Assembly (NCBI GenBank): GCA_902805845.1 | Contig: CADCUI010000007.1 | Span: forward strand, 1-54,190 | Reading direction: 5' to 3' | DNA length: 54,190 bases | Origin: an uncultured Nocardioidaceae bacterium | GTDB taxonomy: Bacteria; Actinomycetota; Actinomycetes; Propionibacteriales; Nocardioidaceae | Part shown: positions 11,176-27,181 of the stretch, piece after piece | Layout of the letters: every line of letters starts with the position of its first letter | How positions within the stretch are numbered: the first letter of the stretch is position 1 | Notes under the pieces: model-generated | What the model saw: the letters and a program-made list of their open reading frames with translations, nothing else | Database searches by the model: none | Told to the model about the DNA's origin: nothing | Made by a program: the position numbers and the translations under genes

Positions 11176-11610
11176 ATGTCCGAACCGGTGCGCGCGTCCG
11201 ACCACACGGCACCCGAGGGGATCTCGGAGCGGACCATCGAGGGGGTCGGTCGGCTGTCGGAGGCCTTCGAGTACATCGAGCGGGCCAAGGGTCACCTGTA
11301 CTCCTTCCATCAGCTCATGGGTCGCGCCGACTTCCTCGTCGAGGAGGCGGCCGACCTGCTCGACGAGGCGGGCGAGACGCAGTTCGCCGAACGGCTCCGC
11401 AAGGACCTGGTCGGCCGCAACGTCCTCGACGGGCGGTGGACGTTCCAGGTCGTCGAGGAGTTCGACGACACCTACTACGAGTTCTTCCGTGGCATCGAGC
11501 GGGAGTCGCGCGAGCTCACCGGCGGCGTCAGGCACCTCTACGAGGCGCGGCTGAAGGAACAGCGACGCACCGCCGGCCGGCCGCACCACACCGCCGACCC
11601 CCAGGGCTGA
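11176..11610 (+). CDS. Conserved hypothetical protein, helical, acidic
   Basis: 144 residues from ATG 11176, directly behind a consensus AGGAGG. It is mostly helical, with conserved-looking phrases SEAFEYIERAKGHLYSFHQLMGRAD, DLLDEAGE and FDDTYYEFFRGIERE. There is no signal peptide, membrane helix or known catalytic motif. I recall similar short proteins in many actinomycetes but know no function. It is divergent from mfd, with a 143-base gap that must hold both promoters. The gene ends just before a set of inverted and direct repeats. Confidence 0.8.
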   Translation: MSEPVRASDHTAPEGISERTIEGVGRLSEAFEYIERAKGHLYSFHQLMGRADFLVEEAADLLDEAGETQFAERLRKDLVGRNVLDGRWTFQVVEEFDDTYYEFFRGIERESRELTGGVRHLYEARLKEQRRTAGRPHHTADPQG

Positions 11611-11620
11611 CCGCCGAGGC

Positions 11621-11747
11621 GGCGCTTGTGCACGGCCACACCCCCGCCAGTCGGCGCGAATGCACGGCCCACGGACCGCCAGCCGACCGCTCGGGCGTGC
11701 ACAAGCGCCGACTCGACCGCAGCCGGGCGTGCACAAGCGCCGACTCG
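11621..11747. repeat. Four-copy direct/inverted repeat cluster with 32-bp spacing
   Basis: The intergenic space holds two copies in one orientation: GGCGCTTGTGCACGGCC at 11621-11637 and GGCGCGAATGCACGGCC at 11653-11669. The other two are identical 23-base copies in the opposite orientation, each ending in GCACAAGCGCCGACTCG, at 11693-11715 and 11725-11747. Within each pair the spacing is exactly 32 bases. The two pairs are inverted with respect to each other, so a large stem is possible. Copies of this kind look like a dispersed intergenic repeat. It lies between a hypothetical gene and a primase-polymerase gene and ends about 20 bases before the latter's start. Confidence 0.85.
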
Positions 11748-11766
11748 GCGGACATAGGGTCGGAGG

Positions 11767-12750
11767 ATGGCGGCGAGCTCTCCCGCGGTCGAGGTCGAGG
11801 TCGACGACAAGGTCGTCCGGGTCTCGAACCCCGACCGGGTGTACTTCCCGGCGCGCGGCGAGACCAAGCTCGACCTGGTCCACTACTACCTCTCCGTCGG
11901 AGAGGGCATCGTCCGCTCGCTCTACGAGCGGCCGTGCATGATGCACCGCTTCCCCACCGGGGTCGCAGGCGAGAAGGTGCACCAGAAGCGGGTGCCGGCC
12001 GGGGCCCCTCCGTGGCTGGAGACGGTGCGCGTCTTCTTCCCGCGCTACAAGCGGACCGCCGACGAGCTGTGCGTCACCGAGCTGGCCAGCGTGATCTGGG
12101 CGGTCCAGATGTCGACGGTGGAGTTCCACCCCTGGAACAGCCGGCGCGCCGACACCGAGAAGCCCGACGAGTGGCGCATCGACCTCGACCCGGGGCCGTT
12201 GTGCGACTTCGACACCGTCCGTCGGGCGGCCCACGTCGCGCACGAGGTGCTCGACGAGCTCGGTGCCGTGGGGTGGCCCAAGACCAGCGGCGGCAACGGT
12301 CTCCACATCTACGTCCGGACCCGTCCCGAGCACGGCTTCGGCGACGTACGCCGGGCCGCGTTGGCCTTTGCCAGGGAGGTGGAACGGCGCTGTCCGGACG
12401 AGGTCACCACGGCCTGGTGGCGCAAGGACCGGGACCCGCACGCGCTCTTCGTCGACTACAACCAGAACGCCCGGGACCACACGATCGCGGCCGCCTACTC
12501 CGTGCGGGGGAACCCGGAGGGCACCGTCTCGACGCCCATCCGGTGGGAGGAGATCGACGACGTGGAGCCGCGCGAGCTGACGATCGCCACGGTGCCCGGC
12601 CGCTTCGCCGCGACGGGCGACCTCCACGAGGGGATCGACGAGGCCGTCTTCGACATCGCGCCGTTGCTCGCGTGGGCGGAACGGGATGATCACACCGGTG
12701 TCGCCTACGCTGAGGAGGTCGACGCCGACGACGTCCCTCCGGGGTCCTGA
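11767..12750 (+). CDS. Stand-alone LigD-type primase-polymerase (Prim-Pol)
   Basis: 327 residues matching the polymerase domain of bacterial LigD. Features are the N-terminal NPDRVYFPARGETKLDLVHYY, the substrate-pocket phrase HRFPTGVAGE.VHQKRVP, the metal-binding EWRIDLDPGP (D-x-D), SGGNGLHIYVR and VDYNQNARDHTIAAAYSVR. The family fills gaps and adds ribonucleotides during non-homologous end joining or gap repair. There is no ligase or 3'-phosphoesterase domain in this protein, and no Ku or ligase gene in the window. It therefore resembles the free-standing PolD-type enzymes of mycobacteria. Start is ATG 11767 with GGAGG just upstream. Confidence 0.93.
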   Translation: MAASSPAVEVEVDDKVVRVSNPDRVYFPARGETKLDLVHYYLSVGEGIVRSLYERPCMMHRFPTGVAGEKVHQKRVPAGAPPWLETVRVFFPRYKRTADELCVTELASVIWAVQMSTVEFHPWNSRRADTEKPDEWRIDLDPGPLCDFDTVRRAAHVAHEVLDELGAVGWPKTSGGNGLHIYVRTRPEHGFGDVRRAALAFAREVERRCPDEVTTAWWRKDRDPHALFVDYNQNARDHTIAAAYSVRGNPEGTVSTPIRWEEIDDVEPRELTIATVPGRFAATGDLHEGIDEAVFDIAPLLAWAERDDHTGVAYAEEVDADDVPPGS

Positions 12751-12800
12751 TCACCCTGCGTCGACCTGACGACCCTCCTCACGGACCCGGAGCCCCCACC

Positions 12801-14144
12801 GTGCCAACGAGCGACCCCCGTCGGGCCGGGCTCACCCGTCGGGGCCTGCTGGCCGCCGGAGCAGCCGGCGTCGTCGGCGCGTCCCTCCAGTCGTGCACCG
12901 GGTCGAGTGACCGTGCGGGCGACAATGCGGGCGACGGCGCTTCTGAACCGACGCCTCGCCCCACCGAGCCCGCTCCCGACCTCCCGATGGTGCGGCCCTT
13001 CTCGTCGGACCAGGCCTACCGCTCGTTCGGCGTCGCCGCGCATCCCAGCCACCGGCAGGCGGCGTACCAGTTCACCGAGGAGTGGATGGCCCGGCTCTCG
13101 GACATGGGCGTGACCTACTTCCGGGGCTTCTACGCCCACCACGTCGAGGAGACCCCGGCCGTGACGGGGCTGGCGCGCCGGCACGGTCTCGGCTGGGGGA
13201 TGACGGTCTGCTCGGGGCTCGACGAGTCCGAGGAGCTGCTCGAGCGGCGGATCGCCCACATCGCGGCCAACGCAGCCGACGTGTGCCTGTACGTCGAGGG
13301 GATCAACGAGCCGAACTACGACCGGGGCGGCGGCAAGGTCCCCACGGACTGGCCGGAGACCACCGCGCGCCTGCAGAAGGTCATCTGGAACGCCGTGCGC
13401 AGCCACCCTTCTCTCGACGACGTGCCGATCCTCGGGCCGTCACTGCAGGCCCAGGTCGCCGGCCCCGCCGACTACCGCCGGCTGAGGCGGCTCGGGATCT
13501 TGAGGAACCTGGACATCGCCGGCGTCCACAGCTACCCGAACGGGTACTACCCCGACCGGTCGCTCGACGAGCGGCTGCAGGTGGTGGAGCAGCAGTGGCC
13601 GGACGTGCCGATCTGGATCACCGAGACCGGCTACCACAACGCCCTGCAGACCAGGACCGGGCATCTACCGACGCCGGAGGACGTCACCGCGCTCTACGCG
13701 CCGGCTGCGCTGCTGGAAGCGGTCGACCGGGGCCACAAGGTGGCGTGGTACGAGGCCCTGGACGACCCCGACAGCGGGGCCAAGGACCTCATCGAGCACC
13801 ACTTCGGGCTCTTCGCCATGGGGTCCGGCGCAGCGCCGCCGTGGCGGCCCAAGCCGGTCGTCGCCACGTTGACCGCGTTGCTTGCGCAGCTGCGCGACCC
13901 CGGACCGGCGTACGAACCACCGCCGGTGGCGCTCAGGGTGACGTCGAGCGCCCCCGACCTGAGGTTCACCGCGCTCGGCCGGCGCGACGGCAGCGTCCGG
14001 GTCTTCCTGCGGCGCTCGGCGAGCTGCTGGGAGCCGCACAGCGCGACCCGCATCAACGTGCCTGACGTGCGCGTCCGCATCGAGTCCGAGAGCCGCTCTC
14101 GCACCGTGGACGTGGGTAATCGGGTCGTCGTCGTCAAGATTTGA
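12801..14144 (+). CDS. Tat-exported lipoprotein, clan GH-A-like glycoside hydrolase
   Basis: 447 residues starting with GTG 12801. The N terminus has a twin-arginine motif (TRRGLLAAGA) followed by a lipobox-like LQSC, then a Ser/Pro/Thr-rich linker to about residue 65. The rest reads as a TIM-barrel glycosidase. A likely acid/base Glu is in VEGINEPNY near residue 170, and a likely nucleophile Glu is in PIWITETGYHN near residue 275, both at strand ends as in clan GH-A (GH5/GH39-like). A short beta domain ends the protein. The polysaccharide substrate is unknown. The position at the edge of the polysaccharide segment suggests trimming of the exported glycan, which is inference. Confidence 0.82.
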   Translation: MPTSDPRRAGLTRRGLLAAGAAGVVGASLQSCTGSSDRAGDNAGDGASEPTPRPTEPAPDLPMVRPFSSDQAYRSFGVAAHPSHRQAAYQFTEEWMARLSDMGVTYFRGFYAHHVEETPAVTGLARRHGLGWGMTVCSGLDESEELLERRIAHIAANAADVCLYVEGINEPNYDRGGGKVPTDWPETTARLQKVIWNAVRSHPSLDDVPILGPSLQAQVAGPADYRRLRRLGILRNLDIAGVHSYPNGYYPDRSLDERLQVVEQQWPDVPIWITETGYHNALQTRTGHLPTPEDVTALYAPAALLEAVDRGHKVAWYEALDDPDSGAKDLIEHHFGLFAMGSGAAPPWRPKPVVATLTALLAQLRDPGPAYEPPPVALRVTSSAPDLRFTALGRRDGSVRVFLRRSASCWEPHSATRINVPDVRVRIESESRSRTVDVGNRVVVVKI

Positions 14145-14330
14145 CGTGCGCTTTGTCCAAGTTGTCCGACATGCGGAATCGCTGGGGCCGATGGTCCCCT
14201 TGCATGTGCTTGACGGGGCATGGAGGATGAGCAACACGGGGAGTGCCGCGCTGAGTCGCGGCCTCGTCACCGGTCAGAGGGGGCCGGATAGGTGCACTCG
14301 GGCACCGTACTTCAGGGGGCAGGGGAACTC

Positions 14331-15899
14331 ATGTCATTGCGTCGTTTTCGACGTCTCGTGGTGGCCGCGGGGTGCCTGGCACTTCTGCCGTCCGTCGCCC
14401 AGGCGGCCATGCATCAAAGCACGCTGACCCGTGCGGGCAGCAACTCAGCCGTGGAGGACGGGACTCCGGAGGTCGTCAGCAAGGCGCAGGACGCGCGCTG
14501 CATGCAAGCGCAGCCCAGCGTCGACGCTATTGCGGTGCTCGGGGACATGGGGTTCATGGGCGGGCCGTTCGACTGCGTCAAGCAGGGATCGACCACGCTC
14601 ACGGGGCAGCCCGGCCTAGCGTCGTTCAGCATCAGTGGCCGCGACCTGCGACCGGGGTTCGTCCCGCCAGCGCTGACGTTGAACGCCGCAGGCGTACGCG
14701 CGCTGGTCGCTGACCCGTCCACGAACTCGCTGTTCGTCGGCGGCGACTTCAAGTACACCGTGCCCGGCACGACGACGACCCGCAACGGGCTGGTCAAGCT
14801 CAACGCGACGACCGGTGCGATCGACACAAGCTTCAAGCCGGCGTTCGGCAACGGCATGGTCAGCGACCTCGAGCTGGTCACGCTGGCGGGTCAGAAGCGG
14901 CTGCTGGTGGGCGGTGCCGGGAGTGTCAAGCTGGCGTCGCTCAGCCCCACCACCGGCGCGAACGACAAGTTCGTCGACGCACTGATCGAGCAGCCCATCA
15001 TCGACTCCGACGGGTTCCAGGCCTGGGGCGCCGTCGGCGTCTACCAGATGGCGGTCAGGCCGGGCGGCACACAGCTGGCCCTGACCGGCAACTTCATGAA
15101 GGTCGATGGCCAGGCCCGCAGAGGATTCGTGGTCTTGAGCCTCGCGGACGCGGCACCCCCTGCGGGCAGCAGCGGCGACACCGTGCACCCCTGGTACTAC
15201 TCGGGCTTTGCGAAGGACTGCGGCGCGACGGGAGCGTTGCAGACGCGCCGCATCGCCTACCTCCAGGGCGTCGACTGGTCCCCTGGCGGCGAGTTCCTCA
15301 CGGTCACCGCGACGGGGAGGATCCCGGAGCAGACGTGGCAGGTGTTCAAGCCGTGGATGACTGACGCGCAGAAGGCGCAGACCACGGTCTGCGACGCCGT
15401 CGGACGATTCGCATTCGCCGACTCGTCGAAGCCGGTCTGGGTCAACTACACCGGCGGCGACAGTGTCTGGACGGTCCAGGACACCGGGAGCGCCGTGTAC
15501 GTCCAGGGCCACTTCAAGTGGCTGGACGACCCGGACGGCTTCGGCAGCATGCCGGCTCGCTGGGAAGGGACCAACTGCAAGCAGGACGCCACGACGCCGA
15601 AGGATGCTGGCGTGGGATGCGTCGGGGTCGGGGTCAGGACCGACCCTCCGGCCGGAACCGACCCGAGGACCGGCGTGGCGTACAAGGAGTGGAAGTACGC
15701 GAGCTTCCGGACCGGGCTCGGCGCGATCGACCCGCACACCGGCCTCGCGATCGACTCCTGGACAGTGAACCTCAACGGCGTCAGGAAGGGTGGCAAGGCA
15801 CTCTTGGTTACCGAGGACGGCCTCTGGGCCGGCACCGACGCGCCTCGGGTCTTCAGCGAGAGCCACTACGGGCTGGCGTACCTTCGCTGGGCTCCGTAA
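14331..15899 (+). CDS. Secreted delta-60-repeat/beta-propeller-like protein (copy A)
   Basis: 522 residues. The ATG at 14331 is preceded by GGGGGCAGGGG and followed by a Sec signal peptide ending near AQAA. The body has repeats of the delta-60/Kelch-like type, such as NSLFVGGDF, IDTSFKPAFGNGMVSDLEL and LALTGNFMKVDGQARRGF. Near residue 365 is WVNYTGGDSVWTVQDTGSAVYVQGHFKWLDDP, a block almost repeated in the paralogue at 22571. No enzymatic motif is visible. It is probably an extracellular or wall-associated propeller. A small hairpin (GGTGC/GCACC) lies at 14291-14306 in the leader. The two copies flank the flippase-kinase-sulfotransferase genes. Confidence 0.82.
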   Translation: MSLRRFRRLVVAAGCLALLPSVAQAAMHQSTLTRAGSNSAVEDGTPEVVSKAQDARCMQAQPSVDAIAVLGDMGFMGGPFDCVKQGSTTLTGQPGLASFSISGRDLRPGFVPPALTLNAAGVRALVADPSTNSLFVGGDFKYTVPGTTTTRNGLVKLNATTGAIDTSFKPAFGNGMVSDLELVTLAGQKRLLVGGAGSVKLASLSPTTGANDKFVDALIEQPIIDSDGFQAWGAVGVYQMAVRPGGTQLALTGNFMKVDGQARRGFVVLSLADAAPPAGSSGDTVHPWYYSGFAKDCGATGALQTRRIAYLQGVDWSPGGEFLTVTATGRIPEQTWQVFKPWMTDAQKAQTTVCDAVGRFAFADSSKPVWVNYTGGDSVWTVQDTGSAVYVQGHFKWLDDPDGFGSMPARWEGTNCKQDATTPKDAGVGCVGVGVRTDPPAGTDPRTGVAYKEWKYASFRTGLGAIDPHTGLAIDSWTVNLNGVRKGGKALLVTEDGLWAGTDAPRVFSESHYGLAYLRWAP

Positions 15900-15923
15900 G
15901 TTTCAGCGCGCGAGCGATCCACC

Positions 15924-15955
15924 GACAGACCCGGGCCACGTGCCCGGGTCCTGTC
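15924..15955. terminator. Hairpin terminator between convergent genes
   Basis: A 13-bp inverted repeat (GACAG-ACCCGGGC paired with GCCCGGGTCCTGTC, one bulged base) lies in the short gap between the convergent propeller gene and the flippase gene. It can serve both strands. No T-run follows, which is common for GC-rich actinobacterial terminators. Confidence 0.75.
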
Positions 15956-15958
15956 GTC

Positions 15959-17302
15959 TCAGGCGCCGGTGGCGCGCAGGGTGCGCCACCGCGGACGGAG
16001 CGTCGGGTGGGTGGATACCCCGACAAGCTTGCGGGCGGACCACCACATGTAGGCGTACATCGCCACGGAGTGCAGGCCAGCGCTCGCGGCCAGGCCCACC
16101 AGCCCCCACTGGTAGGCCGCGAGGACCCCGACCGCGACGCGCGAGACGAGCGTCACCGACTGCACGGCGGCGGCCACGCCCTCGCGGCGCGACATCGTGA
16201 GCACGGTGCCGGCAAGCCCGGAGAAGATGTTGGCGACGTTGCCCGTCGTCAGCAGCAGGAAGGCGGTGCTGGCAGCCCCGAACCCGGCCCCGAAGACAAG
16301 GGTGAGCAGCTGGCTCGGGAAGAGCACCATGGGCACCAGGAGGACCGAGGCGCCCAGGGCGGCGAACGTCCCCCCGGTGCGCAGCACCCGCTCGAGCTTC
16401 TCGAACTCACCGCGGGCCAGCATGCGTGCACACAGCGGGGCGAAGACGACCTGGAGCGAGGTCAGCGGGATGGAGAGCATGAAGGCCAGCCGGAAGGAGG
16501 CCGAGAACAACGAGCTGTCGTGCAGGCCGAGAAGCGCCCCACCGATCCACAGCTCCACGGCACCGGCAAGGAACGTCGCGGCCTGGTTGATCGCGAAACG
16601 CCAGCTGTTCTTGAACGAGCGCGCCAGGTGGTGCAGCAGGTGGCCGACCCGTGGGAGGTCACGCCACCGGGAGTGGGTCACCAGCCACGCGTAGCCGACC
16701 GGGACCGTGAACCCGACGGCCGCCGCAGCCATCGCACCGGCGACCCCCCACTGAGGCGCCACGATCCAGGCGAGCAGCAGCGCGACCCCTTGCCCGGTCG
16801 CGACCAGGGCACCGCCCGACCGGCCCTCGAAGAGGCTGGCCAGCCGGACATGACCGAAGCCGCGCAGGTAGTTCGCCCACAGCTTCTGCAGTCCGCCGGT
16901 GTAGACGAGCGAGCCGAACGCAAGCGCGAAGAGGAGGCGGTCTGCTGCGGAGCCGGAGGCAAAGGCGTACGAGGCGCAACCGGCCACCACGCTGAACGCC
17001 GGCAACGTCAACCAGACCGCGCTGGCGGCCGCTCCCCGCAGGCTGCGGAGCCGTTCAGGGTCGTCATCGCTCGTGGCGGCGTCGCGCAGCCCGGCCCGGT
17101 GACTGCCGAGCAGGGCGAACTGACCGATGCCCGCAGCCGCCGTGGTCGCCACCACGAACGTGCCGAAACCGGAGGTTCCGAGCCACCGGCTCGCGAAGGC
17201 GTTGACGGCGAGGTAGCCGACGATGGCCAGGCCGTAGGAGACGGTGTACCAGCCGAGGGCGACCAGCAGCGACGGGCGCGCTCGGGCGCTCTGCACGGTC
17301 AC
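15959..17302 (-). CDS. Wzx/MATE-like polysaccharide flippase
   Basis: About 447 residues with twelve or more hydrophobic segments and the family phrases VNAFASRWLGTSGFGTFV near the N terminus and FSASFRLAFMLSIPLTSLQVVFAPL in the middle. It is predicted to move lipid-linked glycan repeat units across the membrane. The start is uncertain. The homologous part begins near GTG 17302 or GTG 17296, neither with a good ribosome binding site, while the frame stays open to 17509. It is divergent from the BY-kinase gene at 17572, its likely functional partner, and convergent with the propeller gene. Confidence 0.88.
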   Translation of the reverse strand: MTVQSARARPSLLVALGWYTVSYGLAIVGYLAVNAFASRWLGTSGFGTFVVATTAAAGIGQFALLGSHRAGLRDAATSDDDPERLRSLRGAAASAVWLTLPAFSVVAGCASYAFASGSAADRLLFALAFGSLVYTGGLQKLWANYLRGFGHVRLASLFEGRSGGALVATGQGVALLLAWIVAPQWGVAGAMAAAAVGFTVPVGYAWLVTHSRWRDLPRVGHLLHHLARSFKNSWRFAINQAATFLAGAVELWIGGALLGLHDSSLFSASFRLAFMLSIPLTSLQVVFAPLCARMLARGEFEKLERVLRTGGTFAALGASVLLVPMVLFPSQLLTLVFGAGFGAASTAFLLLTTGNVANIFSGLAGTVLTMSRREGVAAAVQSVTLVSRVAVGVLAAYQWGLVGLAASAGLHSVAMYAYMWWSARKLVGVSTHPTLRPRWRTLRATGA

Positions 17303-17571
17303 GGCGTCGCCGCGGGAGCGACGGACGGCACACACTGCACGAGGGACAGTCTGGACGCCAGCGGTGCCGCGCACGTCGAGAACAGCCGAAATGACACCGG
17401 GGGCCGGGGATGGACAGTGCCGCAGATCATGCGCGCACCTCCCCCGTCTGGCGGGCCCTTGCGTCAGCGGGACTGACAGGGCAAACGGCCGTATCCTATC
17501 CGTGGGCACGTTATGCCCGGAGGGTCGGTCGCCGGCGGGGCGGGGTGGTCTGACGACAAGAGAGGCGAACG
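17303..17571. promoter_or_regulatory. Divergent promoter region, flippase/BY-kinase
   Basis: This 269-base gap must carry promoters for both the flippase and the kinase. A perfect inverted repeat GGGCA-CGTTA-TGCCC sits at 17504-17518, about 55 bases before the kinase start, and a TATCCT hexamer lies just upstream near 17492. The repeat could be an operator or a hairpin in the leader. The regulator is unknown. Confidence 0.45.
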
Positions 17572-19216: not shown

Positions 19217-20152
19217 TCACCAGCCCAGGTCGGTGCCCAGCAGCTCGTAGAGCTCCTGGTTGAACGGTGCGTAGTAGTCCTTCAGCCGCTGGCGGGTGGC
19301 GGGGTCCATCGGAGGGACCCCCGACCGGACGTTCACCGGCCGGAGGTCCATGGACACCGACCGCACGCCCAGGAACCGTTCGAGACGTTCGAACACCGTG
19401 GCCGTCTCCTTCGCCAGCTCGTCGGCGGTGAGGACGAGCAGCTGCCCGGCGTCGAAGACGTCGTAGTAGCGACGGAGCTGCTCCGCGTAGCGGCCGCGCG
19501 CCAGATAGGTGTGGTGGTCGTGGTCGTGGCTGTAGGCGTCAGGCGCGGCCAGGTCCGCATCGCGGACGTCGGCCAACCGCGACTCCTCGGCGTCGATCGC
19601 CTCCTCGAACGTCGGCAGCGGCTCGAAGCCGGTGGCGACCCGGTCCCAGTAGTGCGAGTACGCGCGCGACACCGGTTCCCGCAGCACCGCGATGAGCTTG
19701 ACCTCCGGCACGGTCTCCTTGATCCGCTGGGCGGCCCAGGGATGGAACAGGTAGTACGGCGAGGACTCACCGACGACCGGCGACACCCCGGTACGACGGG
19801 CATGCACCCGTCGCGCCACGGTGGTGGGGAAGTGCGACCGGTACCACTCGGGCCCGCGCGCGTAGTTGATGTCGAAGTAGTGCGGGCTCTTGCGTCGCTG
19901 CATCCGCGGGAACATCGGCATGACGTCCGGGTGGTTGGCCAGCCAGTTGGCCACCGAGGTGGTGCTGCCCTTCTTCACGCCGATGACGAGGAAGTCGGGC
20001 AGAGGCCGCAGCGACGCGGTGGCGCGTCCGTACCTGCGGGCGCCGGAACGGACAAGCTCCACGGCCTGGTCGGGCGTGGCCGCGCGGACCTTCTCCAGGT
20101 AGCGGGAGTGACGCATCCCGCCGATGCCGGGGGCCTGTGGTGGTGTCGTCAT
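19217..20152 (-). CDS. PAPS-dependent sulfotransferase (ST1)
   Basis: 311 residues with the sulfotransferase fold. The 5'-phosphosulfate loop is FLVIGVKKGSTTSVANWL near residue 55, and the 3'-phosphate site is VLREPVSRAYSHYWDR near residue 160. An aromatic-rich region (ESSPYYLFHP) follows the core strand. It transfers sulfate from PAPS to a hydroxyl or amine, probably on a glycan. It begins with ATG 20152, ten bases after the stop of the second sulfotransferase, as the last gene of a three-gene operon (22350 to 19217). A stretch of His/Asp (DAYSHDHDHHTY) lies mid-protein. Confidence 0.92.
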   Translation of the reverse strand: MTTPPQAPGIGGMRHSRYLEKVRAATPDQAVELVRSGARRYGRATASLRPLPDFLVIGVKKGSTTSVANWLANHPDVMPMFPRMQRRKSPHYFDINYARGPEWYRSHFPTTVARRVHARRTGVSPVVGESSPYYLFHPWAAQRIKETVPEVKLIAVLREPVSRAYSHYWDRVATGFEPLPTFEEAIDAEESRLADVRDADLAAPDAYSHDHDHHTYLARGRYAEQLRRYYDVFDAGQLLVLTADELAKETATVFERLERFLGVRSVSMDLRPVNVRSGVPPMDPATRQRLKDYYAPFNQELYELLGTDLGW

Positions 20153-20162: not shown

Positions 20163-21095
20163 TCATGGTGTCGTCACTCCTTGGATCCAAGCGGGTCCTC
20201 TGCCAGGAAGCAGCTCACGAAGGCGAGCCAGGTCCTCGGTGAAGAGCGGCGCCAGCTGCTCACGGGCGGCCCCCGGCACGCCGTTGCTCTGCACGACCCG
20301 TCGCCTGACCGCCTCGCGCAGCCGGTAGCTGGTCATGCTCTTCAGCGCCGTGCGCACCGCAGGGTTCCCCGTGGCCCACGCGATGCCCTTGTGGACCAGT
20401 GCCGACCGCGGCTCCCCCGACACGTTGACGCGCGGAACCTCAGCGACGCCGTCGTGCAGGGGTGGCACCCCGAGGAACTCCAGCACCTGCCCCACGGTGC
20501 CCTCGTAGTCGGTGTCGAGCTCGTCGTAGAACCACACCCCGAGCTGGTCGTCCGGGAGCTGGGCCTGCAGGGCGGTGAGCGCGTCGGCGTACCGGCTCAT
20601 CCTGGTGTAGTGCCAGATGTGGTGCCAGCCTGCCTCGCGCCGCTCGTCCTCGAGGGCGACCGCGGCAAGGAAGTCCTCCACCGGCTCGAGGCCCCGGGCT
20701 CGCATGTAGCCGTAGGCGCTGAAGGCCCGGTCGACCGGCTCGCGCAGGAGCATCACGAGCTTCATGTCGGGGTTGACCGACAGGATCTCGGGGATCGCCT
20801 CCTGGTAGTAGTACATCGTCGAGACCGAGCCGTCGCCGCGCGCGAGGTACGACGCCCCGGCAGCGCCGGCAGCGTCGTACAGCGCCAGGTAGGCGTCGCG
20901 ATCGGTCACCGACACCTGGTTGATCGTGTGCGCGTCACCCGGTGCGGTGAAGTTCGCCCCGATGCGGTGGAGCGCGAAGTAGTGCGGCTCCTTGGGCTCG
21001 GTGAGGAAGACACGTGGGTGGCGTCGCAGACCCTCGACGAGGCCGGTGGTGCCACAGCGGGCTCCACCGATCACCAGGAACGTAGGAACGGTCAC
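20163..21095 (-). CDS. PAPS-dependent sulfotransferase (ST2)
   Basis: 310 residues. The phosphosulfate loop is FLVIGGARCGTTGLVEGLRRHP at the very N terminus, and the 3'-phosphate site is LREPVDRAFSAYGYMR near residue 165, with HxxKEPHYFAL-like and STMYYYQEAIP segments between. It is distinct from ST1 (low apparent identity outside the motifs), so the two enzymes probably act on different positions or acceptors. Start is GTG 21095, one base after the TGA of the kinase-like gene (21099-21097), which implies translational coupling. The product PAP would inhibit both enzymes; a CysQ-like phosphatase is encoded at 24728. Confidence 0.92.
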   Translation of the reverse strand: MTVPTFLVIGGARCGTTGLVEGLRRHPRVFLTEPKEPHYFALHRIGANFTAPGDAHTINQVSVTDRDAYLALYDAAGAAGASYLARGDGSVSTMYYYQEAIPEILSVNPDMKLVMLLREPVDRAFSAYGYMRARGLEPVEDFLAAVALEDERREAGWHHIWHYTRMSRYADALTALQAQLPDDQLGVWFYDELDTDYEGTVGQVLEFLGVPPLHDGVAEVPRVNVSGEPRSALVHKGIAWATGNPAVRTALKSMTSYRLREAVRRRVVQSNGVPGAAREQLAPLFTEDLARLRELLPGRGPAWIQGVTTP

Positions 21096-21096
21096 G

Positions 21097-22350
21097 TCAT
21101 GCCTCCAGTCGTCCGACGTCCGCGCGCGGGGCATCGAGGTCGAGCCGCTCCAGGAGCTCGTGCGACCAGCCGCGGCGAGGTGGGATCCCCGCCGGGTCGT
21201 CCTGGCGGTCGAGCAGGTAACGCACGTTCACCACGATGAGATAGAGGCGGAGGACGACCTGCTGCTGGGAGCGGTCGAGTCCCCAGTCGTTGGACAGGGC
21301 GGTCGCCGCCTCGCGCACCCAGCGGTCCTCCGCCGGTGCGTCGACTCCACCGCCGAGCCGGATGTCCTGCGCCAGGTAGTGGACGTGGTCGAAGCCGCAG
21401 GGCACCTCGGCCTCGAAGTGCTCCCAGTCCCACAGCAGCACCGTCTCGCCGCGTCGGGCCATGTTCCAGGGCACCCAGTCCCCGTGCCAGGGGCCGAGGG
21501 GCACCGGGACCTGACCCCAGTCCTCGAGGGTCCGGTCGAGCGCTCCCAGCGCCCAGGTGCGTCGGTCGGGGTCACGCAGCTCCGCCGCCTTGCCTCGCAG
21601 CCGCTGGACGAGCTCGGCGTCGACGATGGGACGCGTGGCGCTCGACTGCTTCTCCGCCAGCGCCCGCATCTGCGTCACCGGCACCGGCCGGGACACGTGC
21701 AGCTCCTGCGTGATCAGCGGCTCCAACGCGAGGAAGTCGAGGTCGCGGCTGCGCCAGTAGCCCTGCGGCCGGGGTGCCTGCAGACCGGGGACGGGGCGCT
21801 CCAGCATCTGCAGCAGATTCTGGTACTCCCACTCCAGGGCGTTCTTCCCGGAGCCCGAGCGGGCGATCTTGATGAACGAGCAGACCTCGCCGTTCGCGCC
21901 GAGTGCGAGGAGCACGAGCGCCCGGTTGTGCCGTCGGCGGCCCAGCCGCAGCACGATGTCATCGACATCCTCCACGACCGCCTGCAGGAGCCTCAACAGG
22001 CTCGTGACCTCATCGGACTCGAGGACCAACCGGTGCAGCGGCAGGTAGCGCATCAGCCCCTTCCGCTGCAGGAAGGCGAGCGTCCGCATCCGGCGGCCAC
22101 CGCGACCTGGCCTCGGTGGCCGGAAGGCCACCGCTGCCGCCTCGTTGCCCGGTGGCACCAGGACGATCGGGTGCCGTAGGGACGGCACGACCATCCAGCA
22201 GGTGCGTCCGCCGCCGGAGCGCGCGAACCGGCTGAGGCGTGGGGCGCCCGGAGCGAAGAGTGGGCCGACCGTCGCCAGCAGCTCGTCGCGGAAGACGCCG
22301 CCTCGAAGCCGGTCGCCGTCGCCGTCGCGCAGGGGCGACCGCTCAGCCAT
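21097..22350 (-). CDS. APH/choline-kinase-like phosphotransferase
   Basis: 417 residues. It has the kinase signatures of the aminoglycoside-phosphotransferase-like superfamily: a Lys in FIKIA (159-163), a Glu in LEWEYQNL, the catalytic Brenner motif HGDWVPWN (289-296) and the metal motif WDWEHFE (307-313). The N-terminal 110 residues are basic and not recognisable. Start is ATG 22350, behind GGGGGAG; the frame is open to 22392. It heads a tight operon with two sulfotransferases. It may phosphorylate a sugar, a lipid carrier or a small molecule in the same pathway, or confer an unrelated activity. The substrate cannot be named from sequence. Confidence 0.8.
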   Translation of the reverse strand: MAERSPLRDGDGDRLRGGVFRDELLATVGPLFAPGAPRLSRFARSGGGRTCWMVVPSLRHPIVLVPPGNEAAAVAFRPPRPGRGGRRMRTLAFLQRKGLMRYLPLHRLVLESDEVTSLLRLLQAVVEDVDDIVLRLGRRRHNRALVLLALGANGEVCSFIKIARSGSGKNALEWEYQNLLQMLERPVPGLQAPRPQGYWRSRDLDFLALEPLITQELHVSRPVPVTQMRALAEKQSSATRPIVDAELVQRLRGKAAELRDPDRRTWALGALDRTLEDWGQVPVPLGPWHGDWVPWNMARRGETVLLWDWEHFEAEVPCGFDHVHYLAQDIRLGGGVDAPAEDRWVREAATALSNDWGLDRSQQQVVLRLYLIVVNVRYLLDRQDDPAGIPPRRGWSHELLERLDLDAPRADVGRLEA

Positions 22351-22385
22351 GACGCGATCTCCCCCCTCTCCGCTCGCAGTGTGAT

Positions 22386-22433
22386 CTCGCATGTGAACTC
22401 ACATGTGGACTCACAGGTGGACTCGCAGTGAAC
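22386..22433. repeat. Four degenerate 12-bp tandem repeats with an operator-like palindrome
   Basis: Four successive 12-base units resembling CTCACATGTGGA (CTCGCATGTGAA, CTCACATGTGGA, CTCACAGGTGGA, CTCGCAGTGAAC) lie in the gap just upstream of the kinase-sulfotransferase operon. The first two units form the perfect inverted repeat CATGTGA-AC-TCACATG at 22390-22405. The array ends about 140 bases before the divergent propeller gene, so one regulator could control both. Confidence 0.85.
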
Positions 22434-22570
22434 CCACCTCGGACCCACCCGTAGGTTACCGAGTCGCGCGGGCGTGCGGGGAGGAACCCCTGCGGTCGCT
22501 TTTTCCTATTTGCAAGGATTGCACGTAGGCTCGACTGGGTTCAGATGTGACGCGTGATGCGAAGGCAGAC

Positions 22571-23866
22571 ATGAAGCGCTTGAAGCTCACCCCCGCGGTG
22601 CCGGCGCTGGCGGCGCTCGCGCTGGTGCTGGCAGGACCTGCCGTGGCAGGCACGACGCACGACCGGGTCGTGTCCGAGCAGCCCGCCCAGGTGGCGCAGC
22701 TGCAGGCGACCGCGGCGTTTCCGCAGCCCCGCGTCGACGCGATGGCCCAGAAGCGGGGGCGGCTCTACGCCGGTGGAAGCTTCGACCGCGTGCTCGACGA
22801 CAGCGGCGAGCACGCACGGAGCTACCTGGCAGCTGTCGACGCGCTGTCGGGACAGGTGACGCCGTTCCGGGTGCGGCTCGACGGACCGGTGCAGTCACTG
22901 CTGGTGCACAGGGACGCGTTGTACATCGGGGGAAGGTTCGCGCACGTCAACGGGGACCACCGCCCCAACCTGGTGAAGGTGAGCCGGAGCACGGGCGAGG
23001 TCGTCCAGCGGTTCGACTTCCCGCTGCGTGGGGCGGTCACCGACCTCGCCATGGTGCGCGGCCGGCTCGTGGCGAGCGGCCACTTCGACGGGCATCTGCG
23101 GTCCTTCAGCCGCTCCACCGGCGTCGCCACGTCGTACCTCGCACCCGACATCCGCGGCAAGGTGCACAAGCGCGCGGGCGACACCGTCGTCAACCGCTTC
23201 GGCGTCGATCCTGCGCACAGCCGCCTGGTCGCCGTCGGGAACTTCCGCACGGTCGACGGCCGGCTGCGCAAGCGGGCCTTCATGGTGGACCTCGGCTCGA
23301 CGACGACCACGTTGTCGCGGTGGTACTACGCACCGCTGCTCGCCCGGTGCCTCAGCAGGCAACCTCACAAGCTCCCCCACATCGCCGACGTCGACTTCTC
23401 TCCCGACGGCAGCTACTTCGTGCTCGGCGCGACCGGTGGCCTGGTGCGGTTCGAGCAGGACATCGGCACCGCGCTGTGCGATGCAGCCGCGCGCTTCGAG
23501 ACCGGCATCCTCGCCCCGAAGACGCCGACCTGGGTGAACTACACCGGTGGAGACACGATCTGGTCGGTGTTGGCGACCGGTGCCGCCGTCTACGCGCAGG
23601 GCCACTTCCGGTGGCTGGACAATCCCTACGGGCGCGACTCGGCCGGCGAAGGGGCCGTGGCACGGCGGGGCATCGGCGCCATGGACCCGGTGACCGGGCT
23701 GGCACTGGACTGGAACCCCGACATGCCGGCACGCCGCGGCGGCCGGGCGCTGCTGGCCGACTCCCGGGGACTCTGGGTCGGAAGCGACAACGAGAGGCTG
23801 GCGCGCGAGCCACACCGCGGTCTCGGCTTCCTGCCGCTGTCCGCCCCTCCTGACTCTCCCTCCTGA
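22571..23866 (+). CDS. Secreted delta-60-repeat/beta-propeller-like protein (copy B)
   Basis: 431 residues. ATG 22571 gives a clean Sec signal peptide ending near AVAG; an upstream GTG at 22547 is possible. The body repeats phrases of the delta-60 type: RLYAGGSFDRV, ALYIGGRFAHVNG and RLVASGHFDG. Near residue 320 it carries WVNYTGGDTIWSVLATGAAVYAQGHFRWLDNP, almost the same block as copy A at 14331. It is shorter than A by about 90 residues. It may form an extracellular propeller that binds or organises the exported glycan, which is inference. It is followed 20 bases later by a LamG-like secreted protein gene. Confidence 0.82.
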   Translation: MKRLKLTPAVPALAALALVLAGPAVAGTTHDRVVSEQPAQVAQLQATAAFPQPRVDAMAQKRGRLYAGGSFDRVLDDSGEHARSYLAAVDALSGQVTPFRVRLDGPVQSLLVHRDALYIGGRFAHVNGDHRPNLVKVSRSTGEVVQRFDFPLRGAVTDLAMVRGRLVASGHFDGHLRSFSRSTGVATSYLAPDIRGKVHKRAGDTVVNRFGVDPAHSRLVAVGNFRTVDGRLRKRAFMVDLGSTTTTLSRWYYAPLLARCLSRQPHKLPHIADVDFSPDGSYFVLGATGGLVRFEQDIGTALCDAAARFETGILAPKTPTWVNYTGGDTIWSVLATGAAVYAQGHFRWLDNPYGRDSAGEGAVARRGIGAMDPVTGLALDWNPDMPARRGGRALLADSRGLWVGSDNERLAREPHRGLGFLPLSAPPDSPS

Positions 23867-23886
23867 GAGGACATGGCTCCGCGCCC

Positions 23887-24678
23887 ATGACGTCTGCCGT
23901 CCCGCGCCGGCAGGGCACGCTCCTCCCGGGAGCTGTGGTCTCGCTGACGGTCGTCTCGCTCGCGACGCTGTCCGCGACCCTGCCCGACTCCGCGGACGCC
24001 GCCGGGACGCGCGAGGTCGTGCTCGACTTCGAGGACGAGATCTCGTTCGCCAACGCCGGCACCGCTGCCACCACGGTGCGGGTGGTCGTGCGGGACGGAG
24101 GCTGGGTCAAGAAGGTCGCTCGCCGGTCGGGCTACTCCATCGACCTGCCCGCGTTCGCCTCGACCGACCCGTCGCCGCAGGCGGGGGTCCTCGTCACCGA
24201 CGGCGGCGGCGCCGACGACCTGAGCCCCGGTGCCGCCCCCTTCAGCTTCGGCGCCGACGTACGACTGGACGAGGTGTCGGAGGGATCCGCGAAGGACAAC
24301 GGCAACAACGTCGTGCAGCGCGGCCTGTACGGCGACCCGGCGCAGCTGAAGCTCCAGACGGACGACGCCAGGCCCACCTGCCGCGTCAAGGGCTCGTCGG
24401 GGGCCGTGCTGGTGAGGAGCAGCCGGCGGATCCAGGCGCTCACGTGGTACAGCCTCAGGTGCCAGCGAACGGCGGGAACGGTGACCCTGACCGTGACCCG
24501 GACCCACGACGGTGCCACCTGGACCTACCGCGCCGACGGTCCCACCGGGATCGTGAGGCCGGCGTCGTCCCAGCCGCTGTCGGTGGGGGTCAAGGTCAAC
24601 GACGCCGGCCGCATCGCGGCGTCCGCCGACCAGTTCAACGGGCGGCTCGACAACGTGTTCCTCGACATCGCCGACTGA
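23887..24678 (+). CDS. Secreted LamG/concanavalin-like protein
   Basis: 263 residues starting at ATG 23887. The signal peptide ends near ADAA. The mature part is beta-rich, with the laminin-G-like phrases FSFGADVRLDE, NNVVQRGLYGD, WYSLRCQRTAGTVTLTV and FNGRLDNVFLDIAD, the last typical of the closing strand of LamG domains. It is a likely carbohydrate-binding module with no enzymatic residue. The 20-base gap after copy B suggests cotranscription, so a propeller and a lectin-like fold may be exported together. Confidence 0.8.
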   Translation: MTSAVPRRQGTLLPGAVVSLTVVSLATLSATLPDSADAAGTREVVLDFEDEISFANAGTAATTVRVVVRDGGWVKKVARRSGYSIDLPAFASTDPSPQAGVLVTDGGGADDLSPGAAPFSFGADVRLDEVSEGSAKDNGNNVVQRGLYGDPAQLKLQTDDARPTCRVKGSSGAVLVRSSRRIQALTWYSLRCQRTAGTVTLTVTRTHDGATWTYRADGPTGIVRPASSQPLSVGVKVNDAGRIAASADQFNGRLDNVFLDIAD

Positions 24679-24727
24679 GGCACAGGCGGTGGCCCAGAAG
24701 TGGCCCAGCAAGTGACCCGGAAGTGGA

Positions 24728-25501
24728 TCAGCCGCTCAGGCCCTGACGTGCGACGAAGTCGGTGATCCGCTGGGCCAGCGGGGGGCGGCACACCAGCAGG
24801 TCCGGCAGCAGCACGTCCTCCTGGTTGTAGGCGAGCCCGCTGCCGTCGGCCCGGCTCGTGTGGAGACCCGCTGCCCGGGCCACCGCCACCGGGGCGGCCG
24901 AGTCCCACTCGTACTGGCCACCCGCGTGCACGTAGGCGTCGGTGACGTCGCGCACCACCGAGATCACCTTGGCGCCTGCCGACCCCATCGGCACCAGCTC
25001 GGCGTCGAGCTCCGCCGCCAGCGCCTGCACGAACGCCGGTGGCCGGGTCCGCGAGACCGCGATACGGGGACGGGACGCGGTCGACGGAGGCACCACCGGC
25101 GGAGCACCGGTGTCGAACGTCGTCCCCAGCACTGGCTGAGCCACCGCACCGGCGACCAGGTCACCGTCGGACCAGAGCGCGACATGCACGGCCCAGTCGT
25201 CCCGCGGCGGCTCGGAGAACTCGCGCGTCCCGTCCAGCGGGTCGACGATCCACACCCGGTCGGAGCCGAGGCGGACCTTGTCGTCCTTGCCTTCCTCGCT
25301 GAGCACCGCGTCGCCTGGGCGATGAGCGGCGAACAGTGCCATGAGCAGCTCGTGCGCCTCCCGGTCACCCGCCGCCTTCAGCTCGCGGCCCTCGAGCCCG
25401 CGGGTGCGGACGTCGAGCAGCAGCTGGCCGGCCTCGGTAGCAGCCCAGCGGGCGAACCCGTGGTCGTCGGTCAGGGCTTCGGCAGGTGGATCCGGCAGCA
25501 T
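24728..25501 (-). CDS. cysQ: 3'-phosphoadenosine-5'-phosphate phosphatase (CysQ-like, IMPase fold)
   Basis: 257 residues of the inositol-monophosphatase superfamily. Metal-binding motifs are LSEEGKDD near residue 68, WIVDPLDGTREFSE near residue 85 and YEWDSAAPVAVARAAG near residue 200. The DPLDGTREF form is characteristic of the CysQ/PAP-phosphatase branch rather than general inositol monophosphatases. It hydrolyses PAP, the by-product of sulfotransfer, to AMP and phosphate. Its presence about 5 kb from two sulfotransferases fits that role. Start is ATG 25501. The gene converges on the LamG gene. Confidence 0.9.
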   Translation of the reverse strand: MLPDPPAEALTDDHGFARWAATEAGQLLLDVRTRGLEGRELKAAGDREAHELLMALFAAHRPGDAVLSEEGKDDKVRLGSDRVWIVDPLDGTREFSEPPRDDWAVHVALWSDGDLVAGAVAQPVLGTTFDTGAPPVVPPSTASRPRIAVSRTRPPAFVQALAAELDAELVPMGSAGAKVISVVRDVTDAYVHAGGQYEWDSAAPVAVARAAGLHTSRADGSGLAYNQEDVLLPDLLVCRPPLAQRITDFVARQGLSG

Positions 25502-25553
25502 GGGGGCACCCTACCGAGCGCGGGTGGTCGATGCCTGCGGCGGGACAGCCCCA

Positions 25554-25595
25554 GTCATTACGCCCCGGTCAGTACGCCCCCGTCAGTACGCCCCG
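25554..25595. repeat. Three 14-bp tandem repeats spanning a stop codon
   Basis: On the plus strand three adjacent 14-base units read GTCATTACGCCCCG, GTCAGTACGCCCCC and GTCAGTACGCCCCG. On the minus strand each ends in a TGA. The third unit is the end of the glycosylphosphotransferase gene (stop at 25585-25583), so the terminal codons and stop are copied twice downstream. Because 14 is not a multiple of three, the copied stops fall in different frames. Confidence 0.85.
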
Positions 25596-27181
25596 CGCCC
25601 GCTCACCACGGCCTTGACCGTGCCCAGGCAGATCCTCATGTCCGCCGTCAGGCTCCAGTTGTCGGCGTAGTAGGTGTCGAGCTCGACGGCCTGCTGGAAG
25701 GTGAGGTCAGAGCGGCCGCTCACCTGCCACAACCCCGTGATGCCGGGCTTGACCGCGAGCCGGCGGAGCTCGTCGCCCTGCATCTGCTCGATCTCCGAGG
25801 CCAGGTGCGGCCGCGGACCGACCAGCGACATCTCCCCGCGGAGCACGTTGAGCAGCTGGGGAAGCTCGTCGAGGGAGGTCTTCCGCAGCACGCGACCCAC
25901 CCGGGTGACCCGGGGGTCCCGACGCATCTTGAACAGCACGGAGTCGAACTCGTTGTCCTCGGACAGGTGGTGCTTGATGGCGTCGGCGTTCTGCACCATC
26001 GTGCGCATCTTGAAGACGGTGAACGGCCGGCCCTTGCGGCCCACCCGCGTCTGGGTGAAGAACGCCGGTCCCCGGGAGTCGAGCTTCACCGCGGCGATCA
26101 TGGCCAGGAAGAGCGGCGACACCATGACCAGCAGCAGCAGGGCTCCGAACCGGTCCCCGGCGACCTTGAGGCCGTGGACGAACCTCGACGGCTGCGGGGA
26201 CCGCACGTCGATGATCCCCGAGCGGCCGAGGCCACCCGGCATGATGCGGTGGGGGGCCACCGCGTCCAGCACACCGGTCACACCGACGGCGACCCCACTG
26301 CCCTCGAGGGCCCAGGTGAGCCGGCGGAACACCTCCGCCGGGATCCCCGAGTTCGGGTCGACCACGAGGACGTCGGCCTGCCAGGAGTCCACCCGGGACC
26401 TGGCGTCCTCCAGGCCCATGACGGTGGGCACCCCCAGGATCTCCAGCGGGACGGCGTCCTCTGGGAGGCCGGGCTCGACCACGAGCCCGCCCACGACCTG
26501 CACGTTCGACGTGTGGACCCAGCGGGACACCGCCGTGGCGATCGCTGCCCGGTCCCCGACGAGGACCACGCGCACCGGCGCCTGCATGCGCCAGCGCAGG
26601 CTCCGGAGGAGCCCCGAGGTCACGGCGGCCGCGGTCACCGCTGCAAAGGCCTGCGGCACCGTCGTGGCAGGCGCGGCGAGGAAGCCCACGGCGCCCGCGA
26701 GCATCGCGAGCGGCAGCAGCGCGCTGCTCACGAGGCTCTTGAGCTGGCGGGTCAGCGGCGTCGTGACGGCACGGCCCCGGTGGTAGCTGCCGAGCATCCA
26801 GGTGCCCAGCGCTCCCAGCGCGACGTACGGGTCGTGGTGCATCGCGAAGGCCGCGACCACCCCGGCGGTGAAGGCAGCCATCACCTCCAGGTGCAGGCCC
26901 CAGTCGCGCAGCCACATCGAGAACGGCCGGTCGCCGCTCAGCTTGTCGACGGCCGCGCCGATGGCGCTGCCGACCGCAGCAGACGCCTCCGCGACAGGGT
27001 CGACGGCGCTCGTCGTCAACGTCGCGCCGGCGTCGTCGCCCCGCGCGAGCTGCCGCGGGATGCCGCCCCTGAGGGCAGCCTCCTGCGGCACAACCGGCGC
27101 GAGCGTGAATTGCGACGATCCTGCTGCGAAGGATTCGGTCCCCTCCATGGTGACGATGGCGTCACCGAATTCGCCTGACAT
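25583..27181 (-). CDS. Exopolysaccharide polyprenyl glycosylphosphotransferase
   Basis: About 532 residues. The N-terminal half has membrane helices (about 100-210) and a CoA-binding-like cytoplasmic fold (VRVVLVGDRAAIATAV). The C-terminal bacterial sugar-transferase domain starts with a re-entrant helix near 325-350. It carries FKMRTMVQNADA, the Arg/Asp-rich RRDPRVTRVGRVLRKTSLDELPQL and the hallmark SLVGPRPHL with KPGITGLWQVSGR. It transfers a sugar-1-phosphate to undecaprenyl phosphate, the first step in building an exported polysaccharide. Start is ATG 27181 (alternatives 27262 and 27148). It is the only glycan-chain enzyme of this type in the window. Confidence 0.92.
   Translation of the reverse strand: MSGEFGDAIVTMEGTESFAAGSSQFTLAPVVPQEAALRGGIPRQLARGDDAGATLTTSAVDPVAEASAAVGSAIGAAVDKLSGDRPFSMWLRDWGLHLEVMAAFTAGVVAAFAMHHDPYVALGALGTWMLGSYHRGRAVTTPLTRQLKSLVSSALLPLAMLAGAVGFLAAPATTVPQAFAAVTAAAVTSGLLRSLRWRMQAPVRVVLVGDRAAIATAVSRWVHTSNVQVVGGLVVEPGLPEDAVPLEILGVPTVMGLEDARSRVDSWQADVLVVDPNSGIPAEVFRRLTWALEGSGVAVGVTGVLDAVAPHRIMPGGLGRSGIIDVRSPQPSRFVHGLKVAGDRFGALLLLVMVSPLFLAMIAAVKLDSRGPAFFTQTRVGRKGRPFTVFKMRTMVQNADAIKHHLSEDNEFDSVLFKMRRDPRVTRVGRVLRKTSLDELPQLLNVLRGEMSLVGPRPHLASEIEQMQGDELRRLAVKPGITGLWQVSGRSDLTFQQAVELDTYYADNWSLTADMRICLGTVKAVVSGRGAY

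Follow-up and report, generated by a model that had tools for sequence, protein, structure and literature searches.

Among bacteria, sulfated polysaccharides have been treated as a speciality of cyanobacteria (PMC8205485, PMC13390465), and products of this kind are barely described in Actinobacteria; in our literature searches, no paper turned up that deals with such polymers from Nocardioides, Nocardioidaceae, or Geodermatophilaceae. Here we analyze a 54,190-nucleotide contig of an uncultured Nocardioidaceae bacterium (GenBank assembly GCA_902805845.1, contig CADCUI010000007.1; this whole stretch is called the window below), in which a segment between mfd and pth (positions 11,176 to 27,181) encodes two sulfotransferases together with polysaccharide export and chain-length proteins. 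We consider it likely that this segment accounts for priming, sulfation, flipping, and chain-length control in a dispersed Wzx/Wzy-type sulfated exopolysaccharide system of Nocardioidaceae.

The closest published precedent is the wps-1 cluster of Actinoplanes missouriensis, described in a 2026 paper that predicts a sulfated polysaccharide as its product (PMC13390465). Mutants in the heparan-sulfate-like sulfotransferase gene, a kinase-like gene, the Wzx, Wzy, and Wzz genes, and an adjacent gene of the Sat/adenosine 5'-phosphosulfate (APS) kinase family formed abnormal sporangia, the mutant in the other sulfotransferase gene had normal-looking sporangia and released fewer spores, and the authors concluded that all wps-1 genes except wpsD are required for normal sporangium formation (PMC13390465). 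Like the system considered here, wps-1 belongs to an actinomycete and comprises Wzx, Wzy (in our bacterium encoded elsewhere in the genome), Wzz, a glycoside hydrolase, two sulfotransferases of different families, one of them with a heparan-sulfate-sulfotransferase domain, and the protein-kinase-like WpsI, lettered next to the heparan-sulfate-type sulfotransferase (PMC13390465). In contrast to the window, GT2, GT26, Wzy, and Sat/APS-kinase-family genes lie in or beside wps-1, whereas in our genome GT4 and Wzy homologues lie elsewhere and an APS kinase was not found; the parts of the paper available to us mention neither propellers nor LamG proteins (PMC13390465). By analogy, wps-1 would lend a function to the similar mix of genes described below.

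Three further systems share single traits with the locus. The xss cluster of Synechocystis sp. PCC 6803, whose product synechan has been analyzed and contains sulfate, is likewise of the Wzx/Wzy type with two sulfotransferases of distinct subfamilies, but it is cyanobacterial, contains eight glycosyltransferases and its own regulators, and is presented, in the available parts of the source, with no mention of a kinase, propeller, or LamG protein (PMC8205485). The capsule cluster of Cobetia marina KMM 1449, whose characterized polymer is sulfated, has sulfotransferases and also cysQ and genes for the synthesis of the sulfate donor 3'-phosphoadenosine 5'-phosphosulfate (PAPS); unlike our locus, it belongs to an ABC-transporter capsule from another phylum, and its cysQ travels with the PAPS genes rather than in a pth-mfd block (PMC11766843). 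Finally, the mycobacterial sulfation branch (Stf enzymes, CysNC, and CysQ) resembles the situation here in the likeness of Mycobacterium tuberculosis CysQ to the window CysQ and probably also in its APS-fed reductive branch, whereas its described products are small metabolites and no Wzx/Wzy context is mentioned in the portions available (PMC3141025).

The window corresponds to contig C7 of a 3.28-Mb draft assembly (own genome, G000; 91 contigs, 96.4% complete). Genes were called from open reading frame (ORF) lists and the GC content by codon position, and identities were assigned with Pfam and NCBIfam. An earlier note on this DNA had placed a flippase, a Wzz/BY-kinase, an initiating transferase, two sulfotransferases, an APH-like kinase, two propellers, a LamG protein, and CysQ between mfd and pth, and all of these were recovered; missing from it were a glycoside-hydrolase-like gene and the fact that the segment opens with a small ORF and a LigD-type gene of the mfd neighborhood. 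The member genes are open, with a GC content at third codon positions (GC3) of 0.88 to 0.94, and comprise the following.

12801-14144, plus strand: glycoside-hydrolase-like (GH-like) protein; PF11790 E = 0.0018, below the cutoff
14292-15899, plus strand: probable secreted beta-propeller 1; weak DUF5122/Rax2 Pfam matches, 34% identity to propeller 2
15959-17509, minus strand: Wzx-like flippase, assigned from the family alignment and hydrophobic segments
17572-19146, plus strand: Wzz-type chain-length regulator fused to a BY-kinase (bacterial tyrosine kinase); PF02706 E = 3e-10, AAA_31, TIGR01007 145.9 bits (cutoff, 108)
19217-20152, minus strand: sulfotransferase ST1, heparan-sulfate 3-O/N-sulfotransferase-like; PF00685 E = 1e-10, above the cutoff
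20163-21134, minus strand: sulfotransferase ST2; PF13469 E = 3e-14, above the cutoff
21097-22392, minus strand: kinase of the aminoglycoside phosphotransferase (APH) fold, APH-like, assigned from motifs and the modeled fold
22547-23866, plus strand: probable secreted beta-propeller 2; weak Pfam matches, model with a mean pLDDT of 75
23887-24678, plus strand: probable secreted LamG-like protein; PF02210 E = 4e-4, 21.3 bits, below the cutoff of 22.9
25583-27262, minus strand: initiating polyprenyl-phosphate hexose-1-phosphate transferase (PHPT); PF02397 E = 5e-65, TIGR03025 319 bits (cutoff, 296)

At the center of the segment, the genes for the APH-like kinase, ST2, and ST1 follow each other in this order on the minus strand, the first two overlapping by 38 bp and the last two being separated by 10 bp; given this spacing, they form one predicted operon and are likely cotranscribed. 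ST1 matches heparan sulfate 3-O-sulfotransferase 3A1 (PDB accession no. 1t8t) with an E value of 3e-22 alone and 8e-37 as a family profile, with N-sulfotransferases among its next PDB matches, and has six homologues at 44 to 54% identity. The ST2 family (homologues at 44 to 58%) yields a profile that matches the sulfotransferase of PDB accession no. 3rnl along its length (E = 1e-55). ST2 reads EPHYF, the EPH motif of 1t8t being kept in 7 of 7 aligned sequences. ST1 features KKGST and ST2 RCGTT, and both contain RxPVxRA; we take these to be PAPS-binding loops. One ST1 homologue, in a genome of the same genus (G004, L028:10222-10857), is interrupted by a single in-frame TAG, which makes it either a pseudogene or a sequencing error.

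The APH-like protein had no significant Pfam match (best E = 0.25) and no NCBIfam match. Across nine aligned sequences, however, K175, E189, H303-G-D305, N310, and D322-W-E324 are invariant, forming HGDxxxxN and DWE motifs; HxDxxxxN and DWE are the active-site motifs of aminoglycoside-phosphotransferase-like kinases. Its model (mean pLDDT, 80) adopts an APH/homoserine-kinase fold, and Foldseek ranked APH(3')-IIa (E = 2e-8) ahead of homoserine kinase (E = 7e-8), with modest TM scores of 0.37 and 0.41, respectively, by query length. Animal sugar kinases gate glycosaminoglycan synthesis, and by this parallel it is tempting to speculate that the APH-fold kinase licenses sulfation by phosphorylating the lipid-linked repeat, resulting in a phospho-sulfated glycosaminoglycan-like polymer, although we regard this scenario as quite improbable.

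The window flippase has no Pfam match of its own; it shares 43 to 46% identity with seven homologues, and among the eight aligned members four match MurJ and two match Polysacc_synt, while no solved relative of the family was found by sequence. The assignment as a Wzx flippase thus belongs to the predicted family and not to the window member alone. Homologues of the Wzz/BY-kinase in relatives are 34 to 43% identical.

The context of ST2 in other genomes argues for a polysaccharide role. A match to ST2 with an E value of 1e-20 or better was found in 18 of 58 genomes, and in the six genomes whose ST2 is closest (46 to 59% identity) the surrounding genes are varied mixes of flippase, Wzz/BY-kinase, PHPT, APH-like, GH-like, and additional sulfotransferase genes; in one of the six, G019, the contig is 4.8 kb long and bears two sulfotransferase genes along with PHPT and pth. 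Five of the six have a homologue of a GT4 glycosyltransferase (GT4b) next to ST2. A Wzy is also present around ST2 in five, being of one family in G013, G033, G035, and G036 and of another type in G004. PF04932 was discarded as a test for Wzy, being so insensitive that it gave no match in G013, G033, and G035, where inspection by eye and BLAST did reveal Wzy homologues.

A scan of named genomes by ST2 similarity extended this picture to 41 loci, including Nocardioides isolates, Geodermatophilaceae, and metagenome-assembled genomes (MAGs) of Acidimicrobiia. In Nocardioides sp. Root140, Soil805, and CFH 31398 and in an uncultured Nocardioides, the genes run in the order Wzy, Wzx, Wzz, APH-like, ST2, GT4, GT4, ST1, and propeller, with a few others in between (a low-molecular-weight phosphatase, another secreted protein, and an epimerase); in three of these four genomes, PHPT or pth comes next. 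At 22.2 bits, the Soil805 Wzy falls just short of its Pfam cutoff of 26.6. We counted homologues around ST2 as tblastn matches at an E value of 1e-6. Twenty-six loci span 15 kb or more; of these, 24 hold at least one and 19 at least two of Wzx, Wzy, Wzz, and PHPT, 24 hold GT4, and 17 hold two or more sulfotransferases, while APH-like (6 loci), propeller (5), GH-like (2), and LamG (0) genes are less common, and cysD and cysN occur together in 4. Over all 41 loci, which include 15 shorter than 15 kb that enter only this count, the numbers are 14 for Wzx, 20 for Wzy, 15 for Wzz, and 21 for PHPT; pth is near ST2 in 5 of the 41, so that the insertion site at pth recurs.

For comparison, 20 preset 20-kb stretches from four closed genomes of the family (G001, G002, G036, and G017) contained none of Wzx, Wzy, Wzz, and PHPT (0/20), no sulfotransferase (0/20), and GT4 in two cases; the difference between 24/26 and 0/20 corresponds to a Fisher P value of 4e-11, the loci not being independent, since six of the 26 come from Blastococcus or Geodermatophilus. 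Five of the 41 loci equal contigs of the first set in length and are probably duplicates (L115, G013; L118, G033; L127, G019; L130, G035; L133, G004), and without the three of these among the large loci a core gene is present in 21 of 23. In a first control, made of 14 loci hand-picked from among loci retrieved for other purposes, with those retrieved for polysaccharide genes excluded (two of the 14, L110 and L168, overlapping), 2 of the 14 held a core gene, in both cases PHPT. The ST2 loci of the scan suggest that Actinobacteria widely share a sulfated-polymer system with heparan-sulfate-like enzymes, and some of those carrying it are named isolates that would allow a test.

As the earlier note had remarked, neither a glycosyltransferase nor a Wzy was found in the segment itself by Pfam and NCBIfam scans, and its suggestion that the chain might be built elsewhere gains support from the rest of the genome. 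On contig C4, at about 40.3 to 42.8 kb, homologues of GT4a (64%) and GT4b (51%) lie side by side with good matches to GT4 families. Contig C42 encodes a Wzy homologue with 45% identity to the Wzy of the G036 cluster, beside a GH-like paralogue, and contig C5 (L157:7503-13420) carries a second minicluster with homologues of GT4b (44%), PHPT (43%), and the flippase (36%). These scattered genes are embedded among other genes and not at contig ends, which argues that they truly lie apart from the window. The chain is therefore probably built by genes elsewhere in the genome. The window suggests, moreover, that the parts of such a system may be distributed among several loci, in which case some systems would escape a search for compact clusters.

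Three further observations concern genes outside the window. On contig C42 (L024:12395-15091), only 40 bp separate an additional sulfotransferase gene from a gene for a sulfatase (PF00884 E = 1e-43, SGSH_C E = 2e-13), and the organism may thus both add and remove sulfate. On contig C75 (L053:8995-10799), a GT2-type glycosyltransferase gene is directly followed by that of a sulfotransferase with 31% identity to ST1, another possible sugar-sulfation pair. Near the polysaccharide genes of contig C5 (L157:13928-16757) is a DUF1800-DUF1501 gene pair recognized by Pfam, with lookalikes by eye at L109:5654-8414 and L116:16777-19859.

Taken as one pathway, the scattered parts would cooperate in the following order. 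PHPT would load the first sugar onto undecaprenyl phosphate, and the GT4 enzymes from contig C4 would extend the repeat. With PAPS as the donor, ST1 and ST2 would then act on the lipid-linked repeat while it is still in the cytoplasm and sulfate it; the APH-fold kinase of the same predicted operon would most likely phosphorylate a sugar, either in the repeat or in its precursor. Wzx would flip the repeat, and the Wzy from contig C42 would polymerize it under the control of the Wzz/BY-kinase. Outside the cell, the GH-like protein, the propellers, and the LamG protein would trim or bind the polymer, and the housekeeping CysQ encoded next door would clear the 3'-phosphoadenosine 5'-phosphate (PAP) left by sulfation.

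Several observations weigh against this pathway. The Glu of EPHFFD is the catalytic base in heparan-sulfate 3-O-sulfotransferases, and ST1 instead reads SPHYFD, with S in place of the E found in 1t8t and ST2; ST1 may act like a 3-O-sulfotransferase, but with this replacement we do not file it as one. The C42 Wzy by itself scores below the Wzy_C cutoff, and WzyB, the Wzy type that accompanies the gene order of the Nocardioides isolates, had no match in G000. In addition, no cysD, cysN, APS kinase, or Sat was found in the G000 assembly. A strong APS kinase match is present in 53 of the 61 genomes of the family, and G000 is among the eight without one. In four of five relatives read (G001, G002, G003, and G036), a gene pair encoding a helix-turn-helix (HTH) protein and a coiled-coil protein is no more than 6 kb away from the Sat-like/APS-kinase gene; the nearest G000 match to this pair (69% and 37%), in the middle of contig C24, has no APS-kinase gene in the 31 kb read. 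However, the HTH protein of G000 is 63 to 69% identical to those of the relatives, which are 79 to 83% identical among themselves, and the orthology of the pair in G000 is accordingly not sure.

Further searches bear on the PAPS supply. A DNA search with cysDN gave no match in G000, while five of the six other genomes have it (four at 81 to 86%, one being the query) and G004 is also without. Classical Sat (PF01747) was found in none of six genomes, relatives included, and is therefore uninformative. In G003 and G033, a Sat-like/APS-kinase gene, a TauE-type permease, cysD, and cysN follow one another, Pfam matching the APS kinase domain only and the rest being assigned by reading. Two G000 matches to PF01583 (22.8 and 21.4 bits; cutoff, 21.1) were rejected as APS kinases, since AAA_33 and shikimate kinase fit them better; true APS kinases of the family score about 170 to 205 bits. 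Likewise, L023 was rejected as cysD: its PF01507 gene lies beside sulfite reductase and reads as cysH. Both PF01507 genes of G000 are beside sulfite reductase, and by our reading of their motifs they would be APS-type cysH. Two of the eight genomes that lack a strong match to APS kinase, G023 and G071, are single-contig assemblies, and real loss of APS kinase may occur in the family; at most 51 candidates were scored per genome, which meant 51 of 72 in G023 and 51 of 57 in G071.

The earlier note had named a lack of PAPS synthesis genes as grounds for abandoning a sulfated-polysaccharide role, and formally such a lack is what this 91-contig, 96.4% complete draft shows. The role itself is in part supported, by the recurrence of the gene set with Wzx, Wzy, Wzz, PHPT, and GT4 genes and by the closeness of ST1 to glycosaminoglycan sulfotransferases. 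In M. tuberculosis, APS feeds the reductive branch, while PAPS is used for sulfation (PMC3141025). If this scheme applies here, cysDN would be required by the two cysH loci, and sulfation would be the sole use of an APS kinase. Because two cysH/sulfite-reductase loci are present, we consider a gap in the assembly substantially more likely than a true loss of the PAPS genes.

The same negatives could alternatively mean that the segment is a decaying remnant, which has lost its Wzy, its clustered GT4 genes, and its PAPS cassette and no longer yields a sulfated polymer. We consider this unlikely: while cysDN, APS kinase, and WzyB were not found in the assembly and the segment holds no glycosyltransferase or Wzy, its member genes are open with the GC3 values given above, its sulfotransferase and kinase motifs are intact, GT4a, GT4b, and Wzy genes of the same families persist elsewhere in the genome, and the two cysH/sulfite-reductase loci need APS.

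Other explanations concern the product. The sulfotransferases could act on a small molecule or a glycolipid, like mycobacterial Stf0, their place in a capsule locus being a coincidence, which would fit a mycobacterial sulfation branch that serves metabolites such as sulfolipid-1 (PMC3141025). The co-occurrence with Wzx, Wzy, Wzz, and PHPT in most large ST2 loci and in no preset stretch, together with heparan-sulfate enzymes as the best solved relatives of ST1, makes this quite unlikely. The sulfated glycan might also be a wall polymer or a protein-linked glycan carried by the propellers and the LamG protein; propellers do recur beside the gene set in Nocardioides and in genus mates, and four of five longer homologues have malectin domains. 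Yet PHPT, the Wzz/BY-kinase, and the Wzy of relatives point to a polymerized export product and propellers are found in just 5 of the 26 large ST2 loci, so that we hold this to be very unlikely. We thus favor a Wzx/Wzy-type exopolysaccharide, bearing the predicted sulfation, as the product.

The remaining members are putative extracytoplasmic proteins. The GH-like protein has a Tat (twin-arginine translocation)/lipobox-like N terminus by eye and invariant Glu170 (NEP) and Glu275 (TETG) in six of six aligned sequences; we take glutamates in such NEP and TE-G settings to resemble those of clan GH-A, although comparison with the PDB gave marginal matches at most. Its homologues lie in the clusters of relatives, and it has paralogues in its own genome on C42 and C52. 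For the model of propeller 2, Foldseek ranked a designed eight-bladed propeller first (E = 5e-12), followed by a WD40 domain (E = 2e-10), and the malectin domain on four of the five longer homologues scanned is a hint of carbohydrate binding. The LamG-like protein has a 33% match in G003 beside APH-like and propeller genes, itself an ORF without a Pfam match.

The remaining genes of the segment and its borders are as follows.

7454-11212, minus strand: mfd, a boundary gene and not a member
11011-11610: small ORF at the segment start, belonging to the mfd neighborhood
11767-12750, plus strand: LigD-type primase-polymerase (PF21686 E = 2e-90), a boundary gene and not a member
24728-25501, minus strand: cysQ, PAP phosphatase (PF00459 E = 4e-31; best PDB match M. 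tuberculosis CysQ, 5djf, E = 5e-66)
27440-28021, minus strand: pth, named by sequence and synteny with relatives, a boundary gene and not a member

Next, we asked whether cysQ, which had been described as the cluster's own PAP phosphatase, belongs to the cluster. CysQ scores 96.6 bits with TIGR01331, below the cutoff of 228.8 for the E. coli-type CysQ, and it is the single strong cysQ match in G000; a second, weak match (E = 9e-8) is, by our reading, probably a different phosphatase from the same superfamily. Of nine other genomes searched, seven have a strong orthologue (E = 1e-117 or better, 72 to 79% identity), which in six of them is no more than 3.2 kb away from pth or mfd. The orders are rplY-pth-cysQ-mfd in G013, glmU-prs-rplY-pth-cysQ with mfd 2.7 kb further in G036, pth-PHPT-cysQ-mfd in G001, and pth-PHPT-cysQ in G002, while cysQ and mfd are 3.2 kb apart in G003 and 2.9 kb apart in G004; only the cysQ of G033 is on a stretch without pth or mfd, where it adjoins Wzz and ST1 homologues. 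Since orthologues keep this place also in genomes without an ST2 match at 1e-20 (G002 and G003; the ST2 match of G001 is at 37%), and since 1 of the 26 large ST2 loci holds cysQ, cysQ is most likely a resident of a pth-cysQ-mfd block around which the polysaccharide genes grew. On synteny, we therefore reject the view of cysQ as the cluster's own and regard it as a housekeeping neighbor. CysQ is probably used by the cluster though not specific to it.

The one large ST2 locus with cysQ, L117, belongs to a MAG under the title Geodermatophilaceae; it weighs against the resident reading, and the neighborhood may thus still be useful. In this locus (L117:9967-15303), a UDP-glucose/GDP-mannose dehydrogenase-type gene, cysD, cysN, and cysQ stand in line near the three sulfotransferases, which would fit a uronic-acid-containing sulfated polymer.

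In relatives, the LigD-type gene adjoins mfd in G002, G003, and G004 and sits between cysQ and mfd in G036. Ordinary genes flank the segment, among them enolase, mazG, rplY, prs, glmU, a GHMP kinase, tatD, and tRNA-Gln (some of these names being read from the sequence). Further along the window, positions 43528-46323 hold one ORF with histidine kinase domains and DUF4153, beside a response regulator at 46077-46769; positions 46840-48087 encode a PGA_cap capsule-synthesis-type protein (PF09587 E = 7e-64), and positions 48808-51717 encode a large protein in which RTX calcium-binding repeats are combined with an endonuclease/exonuclease/phosphatase domain.

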